Positions 15,912 through 35,550 of a stretch of 37,283 nt of DNA are shown here, one piece after another (positions within the stretch are counted from its first letter, which is position 1; every line of letters begins with the position of its first letter). The stretch spans positions 1 through 37,283 of the IMG/VR virus record IMGVR_UViG_3300025667_000002, one strand, 5' to 3'. Position numbers and translations under genes: made by a program. The DNA is from a virus. The notes under the pieces were generated by a model. It did no database searches. It saw only the letters and a program-made list of their open reading frames with translations, and was not told the DNA's origin.

Positions 15912-16085
15912 CTACTCTCTTAACTTATCCATTGTGGAAGCGTCGACTACCTTGACATCCATCTTGTTAGTGATAAAGAATGTCCAGTCATCAGGGAAAT
16001 ATATCTCCGACAGCCTTTGCTTCAGACCGTCCTTCATCTCGTCATCCCATGATTTAGGTACCGAGATTATTATGTTCTCAGTCAT
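15912..16085 (-). CDS. Small protein coupled to the PrimPol-MCM gene
   Basis: 57 aa from ATG 16085, which overlaps the helicase stop codon (ATGA); upstream in-frame starts would run deep into the helicase gene and are not favoured. The sequence begins TENIIISVPKSWDDEMKDGL, a short strand then an amphipathic helix, followed by DDWTFFITNKMDVKVVD, consistent with a small alpha/beta fold. No family is recognised. Translational coupling suggests a replication accessory role or interaction with the helicase. Confidence 0.5.
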   Translation of the reverse strand: MTENIIISVPKSWDDEMKDGLKQRLSEIYFPDDWTFFITNKMDVKVVDASTMDKLRE

Positions 16086-18625
16086 TGAAGATCTCCCAGT
16101 CTCATAGTCTTTACCTCTTTGGCTTCCTTCTCTTTTGACGTGGCAAATCCGCATGACTTTAAGGACTTTGTGAATATGTCCAGGGCAATCTTTACGTGTT
16201 CACCTGTTATGATGTCAGTTCTGTGCATCCTGGCAACCGAGTAGGCTATCATGACGACATCGTTGCGGGCTCTGTTAGTTAGCGGGGATTCTTTTTCATC
16301 ACCGTTGTCTCTCTGCCACTCCTGCATTGCCCTGTACTGTTCCTTGAACACCTGAGTGCCTTCCGGTGACATTACGGGATCGTATCGCTGTGCATCTGCT
16401 ATCCATATTCTCATCTCCTGTTTGGTCAGCATGTTGTTGTCTTTTATGTAGTCGGCCAGTCCGTTTGGAGCATTGATCAGTCCTTCTGAATCCAGCATGG
16501 CCTCGTTCTCTTCCAGCGTATTGTTGGTTAGCACGAAGATTAGCCCGAATCTGTCCAGCATTGTCGGTGCCAGGTTGGTGTTATCCTGTAGGGATTTGCT
16601 GGGATTCCATATGGATTTGACTGGGTTGCATGCCGCTATCAGTCTGACTCTGCACGGGTATGGGGTGTTGAATCCGTTCTTGTCGTAACGTGCTATGCCG
16701 TCTGTAAGAGGAGTGTGCAGTATTTCAGAGTCTATCTGAGACATCTTTTCAAACTCATCCATGGTTATGAACGAATCGTTTGCCCTTACTATCGGTCCTA
16801 TTGTCAGCTCTTTCTTACCTGAACCGTTGTCCTGTTGACCCAGCAGCAGACCTGCCTTGGATGCGGATGGCGATGATATGGAATGTCCTGTGCGGCTCAA
16901 TGATATTGCGGAGTTAAGCATCTCAGACTTTCCGGTACCCGCGTTTCCTATCAGCAATGTGTGCAGTTCTCGTCTGCCTGACTCGTTTCTCTTGCCTGAC
17001 AGTATGCTTGACAGGATGGCAAACTTTTCATTGTACCTGAACAGTATCTTTGGTGCTATTGATTCCACTATCTTTTCAATGCCTATGCTCTGAAACTTTG
17101 CCTCCAGCTCCAGAGTTGGTGCAGGTATTATTTCTGACTCTAGTATCTGCATGTCTATTACCTCAAGTGAGAACTTCATTACCTTCTTCTCGTCTATGAC
17201 GGAACGAACTATGTAGGTCATCTTGTACTCCGAGCCCGGCTGAACTATGCAGATGTTGGGCGAGTACAGAATGGCCTCAAAGTCAATGGGCGTGTTTGAA
17301 TCCTCGGACGTGGCCTGCTGTATTCTAATGAACTGTACGTCAGCGTCCACGCTTACATCCTTGTCATGTATCAGTATGTTAAAGTCGTTGTCACAAGTAC
17401 AGGAGCCTGCCACCTTTGGTGCTCCCAACTCACGGTACTCGTCGGCCACATACGTAACAGGTTTTACATTGCATCCGGCCGCACACTCGTAGGTTCTTTG
17501 CAACTCGTAAGGTATATGGTTTGATATGCCCACCACTATGACGTTGGATTCCATTGTTCTGTGCACGTATCTAGCGTTGATTTGATTAAGTTTTATCTTC
17601 TCGCCTATCTTTGATCTTAGCTCACCGTTTCTTTTAATGTTATACACGTTTTGCGGATGATCCTTTCTGCACTCCACTATGCCTACCTTGTCATACGTGG
17701 CATTATGATGAGTACATCTGAAAAGATTCTTTTGATATGATTCCCCCGTTGCCGTATCTATCGTAACAGGTATGACAAACTCTGCCTCTTTCTCCGCGTC
17801 TTTGAGTTCGAAATATGTAGGCTCGTCATTCATACGTATTTTAAACTGTGACATTGCTATTGCCAATACGTCTGACTCTGACTTTCCTTCCGGAAACTTT
17901 GAGTTAAAAAACAAGGCCTTCATCTTATAGTCCTCTAATGTTATGGATGTCTGAGGTACGTGCGCAAAGTATCTCTGCAACTCCCTGATTAAGGAGCCGC
18001 CTCTGTTGGTCCCTACGCCCATCTCTTCCAAAGGTATGTCATCCAGGGAACTAAGACTGCTTGTCTTGCCCAATATCTTGTCAAGTGACTCTTCTATGTA
18101 TTGAGAATTTGGTATATACCCCACCTTGTCGGTACCAACTATGTCTATCATGGAGCCGTCCTTATGTATTCCACCGGAACAGTATAGAATGTTCTTACCC
18201 ATGGACTTTACCTCGATCAGTTCCTTGTTCTTTGGGTTGATGGCCCTGTTCTTAAGAGGCTTGTCGGTGTATGACAGTATGTGACACTTTTGCTTGTTAT
18301 CGTGCTGTTCTACCAAAGTTTTACTTGCGGTTATGTCTACGCTGGTAGAGCACATGGCATTGGTACCGTCCAGATTGTCACAGTCTATGGCGTTCAGCCA
18401 CTTACCTCGGTGTTCTTCATTGTGGAATACCTCACCGCATATTATGGCCATGCCGTCCTTGAACATACCTTTTTCAATCCATTCGTTGTGCAGTTCCAGA
18501 CTGATTGGCGCTGCCTGGAATTCTTTCCACGTAACTAGCGGTTTTTTATTTCTTGTATTGGCTGGTATAACGTTGACACCCACTTCTAGACGCCAAAAGT
18601 TAGCCCATTCATTAGAGTTCTTCAT
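16082..18625 (-). CDS. Primase-polymerase (PrimPol/AEP) fused to MCM helicase
   Basis: 847 aa. N-terminal domain, residues about 1-185: a PrimPol-type archaeo-eukaryotic primase with WKEFQ, AIDCDN (Asp81, Asp83) for metal binding, HILSYTDKP around residue 115, and IEVKSMGKNILY at 137-148. A middle region with Cys/His clusters (C304, H307, C319; C381, C385, C409, C411) and OB-like strands precedes the AAA+ module: Walker A GNAGTGKS (560-567), Walker B ITMDEFE (620-626), sensor-1 AACNP (665-669) and arginine finger LDRFG (690-694), which are specific to MCM. One polypeptide thus primes and unwinds DNA, forming the core replicase. No DNA polymerase of its own is recognised, so host polymerase is presumably used. 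TATA promoter at 18646-18654, 28 nt before the ATG. Confidence 0.9.
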   Translation of the reverse strand: MKNSNEWANFWRLEVGVNVIPANTRNKKPLVTWKEFQAAPISLELHNEWIEKGMFKDGMAIICGEVFHNEEHRGKWLNAIDCDNLDGTNAMCSTSVDITASKTLVEQHDNKQKCHILSYTDKPLKNRAINPKNKELIEVKSMGKNILYCSGGIHKDGSMIDIVGTDKVGYIPNSQYIEESLDKILGKTSSLSSLDDIPLEEMGVGTNRGGSLIRELQRYFAHVPQTSITLEDYKMKALFFNSKFPEGKSESDVLAIAMSQFKIRMNDEPTYFELKDAEKEAEFVIPVTIDTATGESYQKNLFRCTHHNATYDKVGIVECRKDHPQNVYNIKRNGELRSKIGEKIKLNQINARYVHRTMESNVIVVGISNHIPYELQRTYECAAGCNVKPVTYVADEYRELGAPKVAGSCTCDNDFNILIHDKDVSVDADVQFIRIQQATSEDSNTPIDFEAILYSPNICIVQPGSEYKMTYIVRSVIDEKKVMKFSLEVIDMQILESEIIPAPTLELEAKFQSIGIEKIVESIAPKILFRYNEKFAILSSILSGKRNESGRRELHTLLIGNAGTGKSEMLNSAISLSRTGHSISSPSASKAGLLLGQQDNGSGKKELTIGPIVRANDSFITMDEFEKMSQIDSEILHTPLTDGIARYDKNGFNTPYPCRVRLIAACNPVKSIWNPSKSLQDNTNLAPTMLDRFGLIFVLTNNTLEENEAMLDSEGLINAPNGLADYIKDNNMLTKQEMRIWIADAQRYDPVMSPEGTQVFKEQYRAMQEWQRDNGDEKESPLTNRARNDVVMIAYSVARMHRTDIITGEHVKIALDIFTKSLKSCGFATSKEKEAKEVKTMRLGDLQ

Positions 18626-18645
18626 GTGTTATATTATAATGACTT

Positions 18646-18654
18646 GTATTTAAA
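18646..18654 (-). promoter_or_regulatory. TATA box for the PrimPol-MCM gene
   Basis: Read on the minus strand, TTTAAATAC; the TTAAATAC core begins at 18653, 28 nt before the ATG at 18625. It faces the plus-strand promoter at 18769, so this 173-bp gap is a divergent promoter. Confidence 0.8.
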
Positions 18655-18694
18655 TGTTTAACTTGCAAAGTCGATAGCTGGTTTTTCTTTCCTG

Positions 18695-18737
18695 GGTTCC
18701 ACACTATCTTTATGACTGTAAAACTGTGTGTGGTACC
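18695..18737. promoter_or_regulatory. Inverted-repeat element in the divergent promoter (copy 1)
   Basis: GGTTCCACAC (18695-18704) and GTGTGGTACC (18728-18737) are near-complementary 10-bp arms (one mismatch) separated by exactly 23 bp. The same element, with the same spacing and the same flanks (CTG before, CCG then AGAG after), recurs at 26533-26575 ahead of another early gene. Probably a regulator-binding site about 30 bp upstream of the TATA box. Confidence 0.6.
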
Positions 18738-18768
18738 GAGAAGAGAATAAAATATTATGACAAAAAGA

Positions 18769-21169: not shown

Positions 21170-21580
21170 GGGGGGGGTGTAGCCAGAATAACACTTTTTT
21201 TTGGCAATGACACAATGACATCGTGAGGGACCAAAATAAAAAAAAATTTCCACCTACGGGTACAGTATAGCGATTTTTCTCGGATTTTTTATGGTATATA
21301 AGGTTTACTCATACTTAAGTGTTTTTTAGTCAACTAAATTTAGCTCTATGGTCAAACTTTGTTCACTCTTTTTTCTCATAGTGCAGACTTAGGTTTTTTC
21401 AAGTAAAAATAATATGCAAAATTGGCATATTAGATATTTGATAAATTAACTTAACATTATCAACGGTTTTAGTGTAACTTAATTCACTCTACCATTGATA
21501 TTAAATCTTATACCACGTTTACCCGTATGTTTTGGGGGTAAATGGTCTTATAGTATATTGTTTTAATGATAATATGCAAA
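21170..21580 (+). repeat. Regulatory block A, first copy of a duplicated non-coding segment
   Basis: About 400 bp without a gene. In order it holds: eight G (21170-21177) then TGTAGCCAGAAT; an A9 tract (21238-21246) followed by TTT; TAGTCAACTAAATTTAGCTC (21327-21346); and the promoter segment 21518-21554 running into ATG 21574. The same landmarks appear in the same order in block B (24564-24935), with 1 mismatch in 20 and 2 in 37 in the best-kept parts, while the stretches between have drifted. AT-rich throughout. It must control the amidoligase operon and may also hold a small RNA or a replication signal. Confidence 0.7.
21518..21554 (+). promoter_or_regulatory. Operator and TATA-like promoter of the amidoligase gene
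   Basis: TTTACCC (21518-21524) and GGGTAAA (21536-21542) form a 7-bp inverted repeat with an 11-bp gap, followed by TTATAGT (21548-21554), whose start lies 26 nt before ATG 21574. Nearly identical to 24873-24909. Likely operator plus core promoter. Confidence 0.65.
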
Positions 21581-22884
21581 AAGCAATATCAAAACATACT
21601 AAAAATTATATTAAATATGTAGGTGTAGAACTAGAAGGATATTGGCATGACGGACATGACGATTTAAAACATGACGGAAGTGTGCATTTTGAAGATGTCT
21701 ATAATGAAGAATGTGACGGATGTTGCAGAGATAATTGCGAATGCTATTCATATTGCGAATGCTCGATTTGTCAAGCGTGTGAAATATGCGATAATATAAC
21801 CAATGAATGCAAGTGTGACGAATGCTTAATTTGTTCTGACTGTAATAATCATTTTGAATCATGTGAATGCACTATTGAATCTATATGTAAAAAAGAAACT
21901 TGTACGGATAATGATGTTTGTAATGAATGCATGGATAATTTCCAAGAATTACAAAACTTAGATTATAGTTGTGATGATTCAGGCACTAGTTATAATAATT
22001 GTGAGATGGATTGCTCATGTTCTTGCGAATGCGAATGCGAATGTGATAACAGCGTAGTAGGCGAAGTATCTAGCCACAAACTAAAAATAAATGAAGTTGA
22101 AAAATGGATTTTAGACAACTATCCTAATGATGTTAATAGTTCAACGGGTTTACATATTCACCTAAGTTTTAAAAATGACAAACAAGATTATAGCGTTATA
22201 GCCACTGAAGAATTTTATGAGCATTTTATCAATGAATTAAAACTATGGGCTAAAGAAAGAAATATCAATAAAGATTCACGATTTATTAAAAGGCTTAATG
22301 GCGTGGAATATGCCAAAAGATTATTTTTAGCTGAAGAACAAATTAACGGGAATAACGAAAGATATACCCAAATAAATTACTGTTATCATAAGTTTAACGG
22401 CACTGTTGAAATTAGAGTTGGAAATATGTTTAACGATAAAACTATTTCAGTAGAATATGTACAAAGGGTTATAAGAATATTTAACGAATATTTATCTAGA
22501 GTTAAACCAATAGTTTATAGATTAGATGAAGTTTTCGAATGCAGCAATAACAAAAAGTTTGACTTGAAACTTAGAATAAAACAGCAAAAAGACGGATTAA
22601 TGATATATGCAAAATCCGCACAATTCGAGAATAATTTTAAACATTATAATTCATTTACTAGATGTATTAATAGTGACGCATTATTAGAACTTGATGAATT
22701 AAATGACGGGGTTAAGCCTAATATCTCATTCTTACGCCTAAAGGGTTTACAACATGGCAGCAAACTATTTATCAAAGGGCTTTATACTAAAAACATGGTT
22801 TATAATTACCTTGACAGACTGCATGACACATTGACTTATGATGTGAGAATATTGGATAATGATTTAGGAGAGTTTAAAGAATAA
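21574..22884 (+). CDS. Predicted amidoligase (COOH-NH2 ligase, ATP-grasp-like) with a cysteine-rich insert
   Basis: 436 aa. Family marks of Amidoligase_2 proteins: GVELEGYW (17-24), KHDGSV (32-37), STGLHIHLSF (190-199), RYTQINY (263-269) and NGTVEIRVGNMF (275-286), with the essential-looking E, D, H and R residues kept. Between the DGSV strand and the GLHIH region lies an insert, residues 47-157, with 29 cysteines in CxC and CxxC steps (for instance CECYSYCECSIC and CSCSCECECEC), which should bind several metal ions or clusters. Such ligases join an amine to a carboxyl, often with ammonia from a GAT-II partner, and the next gene is one. The start at ATG 21574 follows the promoter; an upstream TTG (21532) lies in the operator and is rejected. 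Confidence 0.75.
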   Translation: MQKAISKHTKNYIKYVGVELEGYWHDGHDDLKHDGSVHFEDVYNEECDGCCRDNCECYSYCECSICQACEICDNITNECKCDECLICSDCNNHFESCECTIESICKKETCTDNDVCNECMDNFQELQNLDYSCDDSGTSYNNCEMDCSCSCECECECDNSVVGEVSSHKLKINEVEKWILDNYPNDVNSSTGLHIHLSFKNDKQDYSVIATEEFYEHFINELKLWAKERNINKDSRFIKRLNGVEYAKRLFLAEEQINGNNERYTQINYCYHKFNGTVEIRVGNMFNDKTISVEYVQRVIRIFNEYLSRVKPIVYRLDEVFECSNNKKFDLKLRIKQQKDGLMIYAKSAQFENNFKHYNSFTRCINSDALLELDELNDGVKPNISFLRLKGLQHGSKLFIKGLYTKNMVYNYLDRLHDTLTYDVRILDNDLGEFKE

Positions 22885-24577: not shown

Positions 24578-24935
24578 CAGAATGATGACTTTAAACAATA
24601 ACTGTATTATGAGTTTATTAAAATCACGAAAAAAAAAAATTTTTGACATGGCAGTAAACAATAAAAATAATTTAAGAGATTTGACCAGCATTTCCAGTCC
24701 AGTCGTTTTATATACTAAATTCGCCTTTTATACCCCTTATGTGAAAATAGATTCACTAAGTAGTCAATTAAATTTAGCTCGATTGCATGGTATAGAGATT
24801 ACCCATAAACCCCCATAATTTTTAGCATTAAGTAATTTCAACATTGAAATATTGTTTAAGTCTTATCACCCTTTTACCCGTATGTTTTGTTGGTAAATGG
24901 TCTTATAGTGTAATGATATAGTGATAATATGCAAA
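24564..24935 (+). repeat. Regulatory block B, second copy of the duplicated segment
   Basis: Landmarks in the same order as block A: eight G (24564-24571) then TTAGCAGAAT; a long A11T5 tract (24629-24644); TAGTCAATTAAATTTAGCTC (24761-24780); the operator/promoter segment 24873-24909; and GATAATATGCAAAAA, where both copies also share the first codons (Met-Gln-Lys) of the gene that follows. The region 24578-24928 is taken as non-coding; a 78-codon frame exists but has no counterpart in block A. Confidence 0.7.
24873..24909 (+). promoter_or_regulatory. Operator and TATA-like promoter of the 24929 gene
   Basis: TTTACC (24873-24878) and GGTAAA (24892-24897) arms, then TTATAGT (24903-24909) starting 26 nt before ATG 24929. 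Two mismatches in 37 bp against 21518-21554. Confidence 0.65.
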
Positions 24936-25135
24936 AATTCGACAAGAACCTTAACTTGATTGCAAAATCAATGGTTCAAAATCAAAAGGCAATTAATGAG
25001 ATAAGAGCTGGGAATATTTTAAACGCTGAATCATTAATCATGCAATCACAAAGCATTTTAAAAATTGGAATGCTAGACATAGACGTAAATGCCAAAAAAG
25101 CAATATTAGATATTGTAATGGAAAAAAGACTATGA
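24929..25135 (+). CDS. 68-aa helical protein
   Basis: First gene after block B. Helical, with QKFDKNLNLIAKSMVQNQKA and AILDIVMEKRL. No metal or catalytic motif. Its first three codons match those of the amidoligase because the duplicated block reaches into both genes. Function unknown; probably under the same control as the amidoligase. Confidence 0.55.
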   Translation: MQKFDKNLNLIAKSMVQNQKAINEIRAGNILNAESLIMQSQSILKIGMLDIDVNAKKAILDIVMEKRL

Positions 25136-25290: not shown

Positions 25291-25493
25291 CAAGTCAACA
25301 AGATGATATATCACGAGCTGAATTAAATTATGCAAAAGGCTTAATGAATAATCTAATGATTGAATTGGGAGAATTAAGAGAGACAAACACAAACTTACAC
25401 CATGAGTTAATAGTTAATCAAAAACTCATAACACGAAAAACGAACGAATTGGAACATTTAGTGCATAATATCGGAGCTATACCTAATGAGTGA
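25287..25493 (+). CDS. 68-aa coiled-coil protein
   Basis: TTG 25287 overlaps the previous TGA. Helical throughout: AELNYAKGLMNNLMIELGEL and NQKLITRKTNELEHLVHNI form heptads. Unknown function; overlaps the next gene by 8 bp. Confidence 0.5.
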   Translation: MTSQQDDISRAELNYAKGLMNNLMIELGELRETNTNLHHELIVNQKLITRKTNELEHLVHNIGAIPNE

Positions 25494-25752
25494 CAAAGAA
25501 GCATATCAAGGTTCTGCCAATTATGATACTTGGAATGTATCTCTTTGGTTATGGAATGACGAACAACAATATAACCATTGTAGAGCATTAGTGAATATGC
25601 GTAAACCCGCACAAAAATTAAGGGAATACGTTAAAGATTTAATTCATGATGAATGTATTACGGATAAAATCAACATCAAAAACGTGCAATTCTTGGAAAT
25701 TGTAAAAGACTTTAGACAACATAACAAAGAATGTAGGGAAATAAAGGCATGA
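25486..25752 (+). CDS. Phage DUF7249-like protein
   Basis: 88 aa. Carries SANYDTWNVSLWLWNDEQQY, the conserved core of small phage proteins of the NYeTWnvaLW type (DUF7249), found in many tailed viruses with no known function. The rest is a charged helix (KLREYVKDLIHDE) and ends with a Lys/Arg tail. It supports viral ancestry for the island. Recognition is by the aromatic motif alone. Confidence 0.65.
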   Translation: MSDKEAYQGSANYDTWNVSLWLWNDEQQYNHCRALVNMRKPAQKLREYVKDLIHDECITDKINIKNVQFLEIVKDFRQHNKECREIKA

Positions 25753-25856
25753 ATAAACCATGCAAAAAATGCGGCAAGATGTCAAGTGATAAACATTATA
25801 CCTGTATTCATGATTGGTTAAGTGTTGAATTAGAGGGTAAATGGTCTAATGACTAA
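25749..25856 (+). CDS. 35-aa zinc-binding protein
   Basis: ATG 25749 overlaps the previous stop (ATGA). CKKCGKM and, later, YTCIHDW supply Cys/His ligands for one zinc. The last codons contain GGGTAAATGGTCT (25835-25847), a 13-base match to the promoter segment of blocks A and B, which may be a relic of a third copy. Confidence 0.5.
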   Translation: MNKPCKKCGKMSSDKHYTCIHDWLSVELEGKWSND

Positions 25857-25936
25857 CCTTTTTTTTAAATTAACTTCATTCATTTAGTCAAGCGTCATTA
25901 TACTAGATTATTAAACTATATTTAAACCTATTAAAG

Positions 25937-25951
25937 TTAAGTGTCACTTAA
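25937..25951. other. Perfect 15-bp palindrome
   Basis: TTAAGTG-T-CACTTAA in the AT-rich part of the 785-bp gap; two 7-bp arms about a single base. Protein-binding site candidate. Confidence 0.5.
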
Positions 25952-26070
25952 TCCCGTTATACCATTACTTAACTATATCATTAAACCATAATCTTATTAA
26001 CATATTGAACCATTCTTAATACTTCATAACACCGTTATAATTGAGCTCTTTAATTTGATCCCAGTAGTCC

Positions 26071-26340
26071 GCGATTCACCCCTATATAACCCTTTCGGAA
26101 CAGCGATACACTTATATACCAAGAGAATGGCCTGATTCTACCCTATATGAATGTTTCGATTCCGCAGCCACAGTATATAACCTTTTTGGTTTTCCGGTGG
26201 ACTTATATAGCTGGCTATTCCTCTATAAGGTGACGCATAAATTTTTTGCGGCCTCGGGGGCATGATGAACTAGGATTCGCTAAAAATGGCCTATATGAAT
26301 GTTTCTAAAAAAGAGCCTCCGCGATACCTTTATATACAAG
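26071..26340. repeat. Tandem array of TATA-like boxes at about 30-bp steps
   Basis: TATA cores start at 26083, 26113, 26144, 26174 and 26204 (steps 30, 31, 30, 30), weaken near 26236, and reappear at 26292 and 26331. Several units begin with GCGAT or similar 10-12 bp before the TATA (26071, 26103, 26321), and two share CCTATATGAATGTTTC (26142 and 26290). About three helical turns per unit would put the boxes on one face of the DNA. Confidence 0.65.
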
Positions 26341-26364
26341 TCTGCCCCCTACGTCTTCCATACT

Positions 26365-26382
26365 AAATTGTAAATCCTCAAA
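26365..26382 (+). repeat. 18-bp direct repeat, copy 1
   Basis: AAATTGTAAATCCTCAAA; identical to 26500-26517, 135 bp downstream. Copy 1 lies about 34 bp after the last TATA box of the array, near where a transcript from it would begin. Confidence 0.7.
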
Positions 26383-26499
26383 TTACGCCTGGTTGAATCC
26401 GTAGATTCGTAGGTGTCATTATACATGACTGGAGTGGAAACGGTGGTGCGGCTACACGATATTCTGATTTCACATCGAACTGGGCCCTCGGAATACCAG

Positions 26500-26517
26500 A
26501 AATTGTAAATCCTCAAA
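26500..26517 (+). repeat. 18-bp direct repeat, copy 2
   Basis: AAATTGTAAATCCTCAAA; identical to 26365-26382. No TATA box lies at the matching place upstream, so the repeat is not simply a transcription start. Confidence 0.7.
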
Positions 26518-26532
26518 CTTTATTCTCTGCTG

Positions 26533-26575
26533 GGTTCTACACATAGTATTGTAGGCGTAAGATTTGTGTGGAACC
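26533..26575. promoter_or_regulatory. Inverted-repeat element (copy 2) before the 26642 gene
   Basis: GGTTCTACAC (26533-26542) and GTGTGGAACC (26566-26575) with a 23-bp gap; the arms also pair one base further in, and the only imperfection is a T-G. Same arms, spacing and flanks as 18695-18737. Lies about 37 bp upstream of the TATA box. Confidence 0.65.
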
Positions 26576-26611
26576 GTATAGAGAAAAACTAAATATCGAC
26601 TTTGTAAAACA

Positions 26612-26620
26612 CTTAAATAC
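26612..26620 (+). promoter_or_regulatory. TATA box for the 26642 gene
   Basis: CTTAAATAC; the TTAAATAC core at 26613 lies 29 nt before ATG 26642, and only 14 nt before the earlier ATG at 26627, so 26642 is chosen. Confidence 0.75.
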
Positions 26621-26641
26621 AACTAGATGATAACCATAGTC

Positions 26642-27037
26642 ATGAATAACGAGAGGTACCGTAAGGTAGATGGTAAAACCAAGAAACGGATTTTATACCT
26701 TTTAGAGAGGTCGTGTATGGAGTGCGGTGAACACAGAACAAAGGCACTCCGAATCATGCCCAAATGCTATATCAATGATGTCCAGTGTTTAAACTGTATA
26801 AAATTTAGGACCAGGAAGCAACTAAAGGGGATAAGAACACCTACATGTGCATCCAACTCAGTCATATACAGATCTCTAAAGTTAGCAAACAGGTCCAGAA
26901 AGTGTACTTATTGTGACGAGCACAGGTTACATTGCGTCAGGTTCGAGAAAGGCAGGTCCAATCTAAAGTGTTATAACTGTTACGAGGTAGAGAAAGTCCG
27001 CAAGTATGACGCCTGGGTAAATACAAACTATCCTTAA
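26642..27037 (+). CDS. Zinc-finger protein, possible viral regulator
   Basis: 131 aa from ATG 26642. Two zinc modules: CMECGEHRTKAL...CLNC (residues about 25-55) and CTYCDEHRLHCVRF...CYNC (about 87-117), both of the CxxC-E-H...CxxC treble-clef kind seen in HNH-related DNA binders, but without the HN catalytic residues. Very basic, with RTRKQLKG and SRK stretches. It has the promoter that carries the inverted repeat shared with 18799, so it may be an early DNA-binding regulator. Function is inferred from fold only. Confidence 0.55.
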   Translation: MNNERYRKVDGKTKKRILYLLERSCMECGEHRTKALRIMPKCYINDVQCLNCIKFRTRKQLKGIRTPTCASNSVIYRSLKLANRSRKCTYCDEHRLHCVRFEKGRSNLKCYNCYEVEKVRKYDAWVNTNYP

Positions 27038-30205: not shown

Positions 30206-30307
30206 ATGCATAATTATAAATGTTCTGATTGTGATTGTTGGTTATTAAAACTTCGAGGTAAATGGGTATGTATGAAATGTACCGTAGATAAACTAGAGGA
30301 CGAATAA
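30206..30307 (+). CDS. 33-aa zinc-ribbon protein
   Basis: CSDCDCW and, about 13 residues on, CMKC: a compact zinc ribbon with a Trp between. TAA at 30305-30307 overlaps the terminase ATG (TAATG). Confidence 0.55.
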   Translation: MHNYKCSDCDCWLLKLRGKWVCMKCTVDKLEDE

Positions 30308-35146: not shown

Positions 35147-35550
35147 TGGCAGTATTTAATTCGACTCTATTTAACAAAGCAATATTCAATACTAAATTCA
35201 TAGCATCTGGTGGAGTATCTAAAAGAAAATTCAGAAAACAACCTAAAGAATTACTTTGGTCACACGCAATATTAAAAGTAGAATCAAGAATAGATATACC
35301 TGTATCAATAAAAACTGAGGGTAAGATACTAACTGGCTTTAACTCAAAAGTGGGTTCTAAAATATCATACACTGATAATGTAATTACATCTTCTAAGATA
35401 TTGAGGGAGATATACAAACCTGTAAACTCAGTGGTATATACAGATATGGAAGTAGATGTAAATAGTACATTGGATAACATGGAGTTAAAATTAAACAAAA
35501 TATATAAATATAACACCATAAAGAGTGTCTTATCACTACTAGACATCTAA
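35146..35550 (+). CDS. Virion-type protein, unknown
   Basis: 134 aa, start overlapping the previous stop. The opening FNSTLFNKAIFNTKF is the repeated F-N-x pattern found at the start of some tail and head-fibre proteins. Then a basic stretch (SKRKFRKQPKEL) and beta strands (ILKVESRIDIPVSI, ILTGFNSKVGSKI). Likely a minor capsid or appendage part. The stop overlaps the capsid promoter. Confidence 0.5.
   Translation: MAVFNSTLFNKAIFNTKFIASGGVSKRKFRKQPKELLWSHAILKVESRIDIPVSIKTEGKILTGFNSKVGSKISYTDNVITSSKILREIYKPVNSVVYTDMEVDVNSTLDNMELKLNKIYKYNTIKSVLSLLDI

Follow-up and report, generated by a model that had tools for sequence, protein, structure and literature searches.

A cluster of promoter-like TATA boxes, probably facing both directions, in a control region of an uncultivated archaeal virus

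Background

To our knowledge, how viruses of ammonia-oxidising archaea control their transcription is essentially unmapped. In the viral record studied here (the window, 37,283 bp, hereafter W), seven TATA boxes are crowded into a stretch devoid of genes, and five of them follow one another at nearly constant distance. The question raised by this locus is what such an array does, and whether its regularity matters.

Results

The virus, its host and its relatives

The 99-bp ends of the W record are identical, pointing to a circular assembly of 37,184 bp. W is a tailed archaeal virus: it possesses both the terminase large subunit (gene at 30307; PHROG terminase match, 1e-20) and the tail proteins that characterise Caudoviricetes, among them a tail tube protein (PF18906). 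The sole match among annotated phages, and the nearest annotated virus, is the Nitrososphaera provirus Pro-Nvie1 (FR725450), with 34% for the terminase and 25% for a baseplate protein. Ammonia-oxidising archaea are most likely the hosts; as neither the terminase nor the conserved element D described below had any match in 84,980 cellular genomes, this assignment is based on protein similarity only.

Concerning the control region itself, no DNA match was found in phage records or the phage collection, Rfam gave no match and no tRNA was found. Twenty-three IMG/VR loci with related terminases were retrieved, including the close sister of W (L004/G001), while an IMG/VR query with the PrimPol-MCM helicase (gene at 16082-18625, minus strand) returned nothing, and scanning the viral records again with the conserved 109-aa product of gene 27078 gave no additional contigs. 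Seven distinct lineages span the region: W and its sister, L007/G002, L008/G003, L011/G004 with G012, L013/G006, L014/G007, and L015/G008 with G009 and G013.

A dense TATA array in a gene-free region

The control region (Table 1), described as gene-free in the first-pass annotation, indeed lacks any ORF of at least 60 aa. It is made up, from left to right, of an AT-rich part (25860-26050), the promoter cluster, a conserved promoter, an inverted repeat and the promoter of the next gene. TATATA cores are present at 26083, 26113, 26174, 26204 and 26331, and TATATG cores at 26144 and 26292, all where they had been reported. The first five (26083, 26113, 26144, 26174 and 26204) are separated by 30, 31, 30 and 30 bp, and are followed by a weak TATAAG at 26224 and by the cores at 26292 (+68) and 26331 (+39).

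Both the density and the spacing are real features of the sequence. TATAT[AG] occurs 7 times within 26051-26350 vs. 0.78 expected, and a five-box chain with 30/31 gaps was found in none of 2000 local and 300 whole-genome dinucleotide-preserving shuffles. With 8 sites randomly placed in 270 bp, the P-value of a five-box chain is ~1e-5 at 30/31 bp and ~4e-4 when every period between 8 and 65 is allowed, both values being post hoc and somewhat generous. The array is also found in the independent assembly L004, which rules out an assembly artefact. As for the repeat units, the 16-base sequence said to be common to two of them, CCTATATGAATGTTTC, is exact at both 26142 and 26290; of the five phased units, only two have the GCGAT start ascribed to many units, as does the last box.

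RNA folding was not better than that of shuffled sequences, either for the array (z 0.22) or for the whole leader of W (z -0.57). A 30-bp four-box pattern was found in 45 other viral contigs of IMG/VR, nearly all AT-rich and of low complexity or made of perfect tandem repeats, and none like the W array; literature searches returned nothing on phased archaeal TATA arrays.

Table 1. Features of the W control region, of its second inverted-repeat module and of related sites (W coordinates unless indicated; box scores from the leave-out matrix where marked LO)
Feature	Position	Strand	Basis or remark
Gene-free control region	25753..26626	none	no ORF of at least 60 aa; composition
Promoter-like box TTTAAATA	25919..25926	-	score 12.9
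Box 1 GTTATATA, pair I left	26083..26090	-	13.7 (LO); first matrix 10.8 minus vs. 2.9 plus
Box 2 CTTATATA, pair I right	26111..26118	+	11.2 plus (LO); first matrix -8.2 minus; expected start near 26141
Box 3 TTCATATA	26144..26151	-	12.1 (LO)
Box 4 GTTATATA, pair II left	26174..26181	-	10.7 (LO)
Box 5 CTTATATA, pair II right	26202..26209	+	11.3 (LO)
TATAAG, not promoter-like on either strand	26224..26229	none	scores -0.1, -17.5
Box 7 TTCATATA, pair III left	26292..26299	-	11.8 (LO)
Element D: A-tract, CGCGATACC-TTTATATA, downstream CTGCCCCCTACGTCTTCCATACTAAATTGTAAATCCTCAAA	26304..26383	+	conserved in relatives
Box 8, TATA of element D, pair III right	26329..26336	+	scores 11.5-13.1
Inverted repeat, arms 26533-26543/26565-26575, outer 26523-26529/26579-26585	26523..26585	+	z -3.1, sub-region
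Own promoter CTTAAATA of gene 26627	26612..26619	+	matrix score
Gene of 136-aa protein, CxxC zinc-ribbon-like motifs, fast evolving	26627..27037	+	sequence; homologues at 29-45%
Second inverted-repeat/promoter module, upstream of PrimPol-MCM gene	18644..18751	-	74% over 108 bp
Module pair, W	26519-26622 and 18644-18751 (minus)
Module pair, G012	326-500 and 25396-25590		91% over 53 bp
Module pair, G013	21692-21841 and 35250-35409		84% over 80 bp
AATTACTTCTTGTAA sites	W 2843, 5267, 11432, 32735, 35549 and similar; G010 1684, 10866, 16026; G012 23140

Direction of the boxes

TATATA is its own reverse complement, so that direction must be set by the flanks; a simple count of TATA cores was uninformative for the region, and only a longer, oriented matrix was informative. 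To build this matrix, W and ten relatives were searched for ORFs preceded by a TATA box at leaderless distance (28-32 from core to ATG), the distance in gene promoters being mostly 29-31; its consensus, AaAAAgg-TTTATATA, derives from predicted boxes picked by core pattern, not from mapped starts. With a leave-out matrix of 64 boxes, from which W and L004 were excluded, the array reads 26083(-), 26113(+), 26144(-), 26174(-), 26204(+), 26292(-) and 26331(+), with scores of 10.7-13.7, i.e. four boxes facing the minus and three the plus direction. They form three back-to-back pairs, 26083/26113, 26174/26204 and 26292/26331, with 26144 as an extra minus box. The score gap between orientations is clear for each box, the smallest being that of 26292 (5.2 plus vs. 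9.9 minus, first matrix).

Seven sites scoring at least 7 are found in 305 bp of W vs. 0.41 expected (P 2.7e-7), such site-density P-values being post hoc and treating as independent boxes that arose partly by duplication. Any 300-bp window elsewhere in W holds at most three such sites, making the array its densest promoter-like stretch. All seven boxes combine the 8-bp core and A-rich upstream element of archaeal TATA/BRE sequences, as in the gene promoters of the same viruses. The promoter hub suggested in the first-pass annotation is consequently retained in part: the boxes are probably real and lie in a gene-free regulatory region, but not as a chain running in one direction.

Several genes, which have no TATA box at the usual place, carry a second promoter-like motif, AATTACTTCTTGTAA (dyad ATTAC-N5-GTAAT), ~36-39 nt ahead of their ATG. 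It is a candidate late-promoter class.

Origin and conservation of the 30-bp phase

Boxes 1-2 resemble boxes 4-5, which lie 91 bp away (72% over 36 nt), and box 3 is linked to box 7 by the exact 16-mer. Judged by these resemblances, the array looks, at least in part, like a duplicated 91-bp three-box cassette, so that its four gaps should not be counted as independent of one another. Around the array, the sister L004 is almost the same as W except that 61 bp (two units) are missing, and it has retained the 30/30 spacing exactly; around its middle box, which is box 4 of W, some 10 flanking bases differ between the two while TATATAA is unchanged.

In more distant relatives, the 30-bp phase, proposed earlier as functional, is absent, an outcome named beforehand as speaking against it; only the sister has kept it. 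The last two boxes are separated by 39 bp in W, as in G002, and by 47-49 bp in the other lineages, and boxes further upstream are mostly 46-97 bp apart in the relatives. A weak exception is the AT-rich part of G013, with loose TATA-like words at -364, -335, -305 and -276 (29-30 bp apart), a single one of which scores above the promoter threshold. The regularity in W is best read as partly packing and partly cassette duplication, unneeded for function.

Promoter layout in the relatives

The G013 array does not align with that of W, and yet it also contains 7 sites (P 3.9e-7). Its minus/plus pairs are located at -271/-242, -179/-157 and -53/-13 from a landmark shared with W, where the pairs are found at -252/-231, -161/-140 and -43/-13. 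The last pair, -53(-)/-13(+), is present in G003, G007, G012 and G013; sites are fewer in G003, G006 and G012, and in G002 the box at -50 is below threshold. Across lineages, the last promoter is conserved in all and its minus-facing partner in most.

G004 and G013 carry their left-hand genes on the minus strand, beyond a gene-free stretch of 1-2 kb, an arrangement for which a bidirectional control region makes sense. The left-hand genes of W are on the plus strand, within a low-GC island, leaving the minus-facing boxes without obvious target; this island may be a later acquisition. The island (21.5-25.9 kb) was also seen to carry an 82-bp direct repeat (21501-21582 and 24856-24937, 85%), as well as amidoligase-like and class-II glutamine amidotransferase-like genes, recognised by eye and without family matches.

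In six relatives (G002, G003, G007, G008, G009 and G012), the left end of the contig falls within the promoter cluster, 110-230 bp ahead of the conserved element, and two separate assemblies start at the same base. These starts likely mark a strain-variable or recombination boundary.

Element D and the inverted repeats

The strongest conservation in the region is that of element D, not of the array. Present in all seven lineages as one copy per genome, element D shows 77-87% identity to W, with flanks that do not align, and 48 of 157 alignment columns are invariant. Its form across lineages is an A-tract followed by CGGCGATACC-TTTATATA (CGCGATACC in W), then ~40 bp that extend beyond the predicted start into the transcript; in W, this start falls at ~26358-26360. 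The sequence AAATTGTAAATCCTCAAA occurs twice in W, just after this predicted start (26365-26382) and before the inverted repeat (26500-26517). Hairpin 1, behind element D, was not significant.

An inverted repeat lies between the predicted D start and the next gene in each lineage, its stem being significant in six of the seven (z -2.9 to -8.7), L015 being the exception. The sequence of the arms varies by lineage and their complementarity is retained: in the inner part, G007 and G012 are 83% identical over 97 bp, and their arms have nothing in common. In several lineages, one arm touches or overlaps the next gene's promoter. This gene encodes a CxxC, zinc-ribbon-like protein in W, G002, G003, G006 and G007; from its sequence, this neighbour is a candidate regulator. 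The repeat would fit an operator read by a virus protein, the alternative being an RNA stem.

In W, G012 and G013, the three genomes that allowed the check, a second copy of the module precedes either the helicase gene or a small gene immediately upstream. The copies resemble each other within a genome (Table 1), where they have their arm sequences in common, and no module-to-module match was found when the three genomes were compared with one another.

Discussion

The array probably consists of ordinary archaeal promoters (TBP/TFB type), clustered and pointing in both directions, mainly as back-to-back pairs, in the main control region of the virus. Host TBP and TFB would bind the boxes; the plus boxes 26113, 26204 and above all 26331 would start RNAs toward the genes from 26627 on, and the minus boxes leftward RNAs, in the direction where relatives carry divergently oriented genes. 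The cores of a pair begin as little as ~21 bp apart, which may be about the closest back-to-back fit of two initiation complexes. Beyond promoter-like and partly conserved boxes, this mechanism is what we infer from few lineages.

The inverted repeats, here and before the helicase gene, would most likely be an operator pair coupling the region to replication, and these paired modules are possibly more interesting than the TATA array. A wider scheme, tentative and on balance doubtful, is a two-site viral switch: a cluster of divergent promoter pairs, together with a lineage-specific inverted repeat present at both places and read by a virus regulator (perhaps the CxxC protein), would coordinate early transcription with replication and set incompatibility between related viruses, the arms being exchanged as a unit in evolution with their complementarity kept.

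Could promoter D (26331) alone be at work, perhaps with its divergent partner, the upstream boxes being leftovers of duplication and drift in weakly constrained TATA-like DNA? Element D alone is conserved across all lineages, the number and spacing of array boxes vary by lineage, cassette duplication is visible and the minus boxes of W face no target gene. We nevertheless find this unlikely, since the TATATAA core was retained between W and L004 while its flanks changed, G013 independently has three pairs at similar distances, and the density of the array is far above that of any other W region.

A replication origin is a still poorer candidate and quite improbable, although the gene-free setting, the AT-rich flank (25860-26050), the iteron-like phased boxes and an inverted repeat whose module recurs at the MCM gene would suit one. 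Cumulative skew, proposed earlier as a check, has no extreme at the array in W, G013 or G012; the boxes carry promoter flanks in both orientations, their spacing is not conserved, and the sole ORB-like word noted, AGTGGAAAC near 26431, was not seen in the compared regions of relatives other than the sister. Beyond anatomy, the origin reading has no support. Among the regions compared, the ORB-like word at 26419-26440, GGAGTGGAAACGG, was present in W and its sister only.

The first-pass annotation had placed each box where the transcript of the previous one would begin, as in same-direction tandem promoters yielding very short RNAs; the 30-31-bp distances agree with this, but boxes 1, 3, 4 and 7 score as facing the minus direction (plus scores 2.9, -0.1, -6.9 and 5.2), which contradicts it and makes it highly improbable. 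Hardly credible is a TBP-binding decoy drawing off host factors, or a scaffold of bent DNA made up of phased TBP sites: the distance between boxes in W and L004 is close to three helical turns, but ~8 sites per genome would be too few to titrate a general factor, and the phase is missing in more distant relatives.

The promoter-cluster reading locates what is likely the main control region in a group of uncultivated viruses. Its dense arrangement of divergent promoters is found again in a distant relative, and a shared, fast-evolving inverted repeat ties the region to the helicase gene; these sites are concrete and open to test.

Comparison with known systems

As summarised in PMC4983044 (citing Dennis 1985), the rRNA operon of Halobacterium cutirubrum has multiple promoters; as in W, several archaeal promoters crowd together ahead of a single transcription unit. 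As presented in that summary they serve one operon, whereas those of W are viral, face both directions and form back-to-back pairs. Viral regulators act at intergenic promoters in SSV1 (F55 at T5, T6 and Tind) and in AFV6, where AvtR, acting between gp29 and gp30, protects ~100 nt between two promoters (PMC5569661). Like these regions, that of W is a control region with a repeated operator-like sequence at or near TATA/BRE elements. It differs from them in that no ribbon-helix-helix gene was identified beside the W region, the neighbour encoding a CxxC protein, and in that the arms in the W group are lineage-specific inverted repeats.
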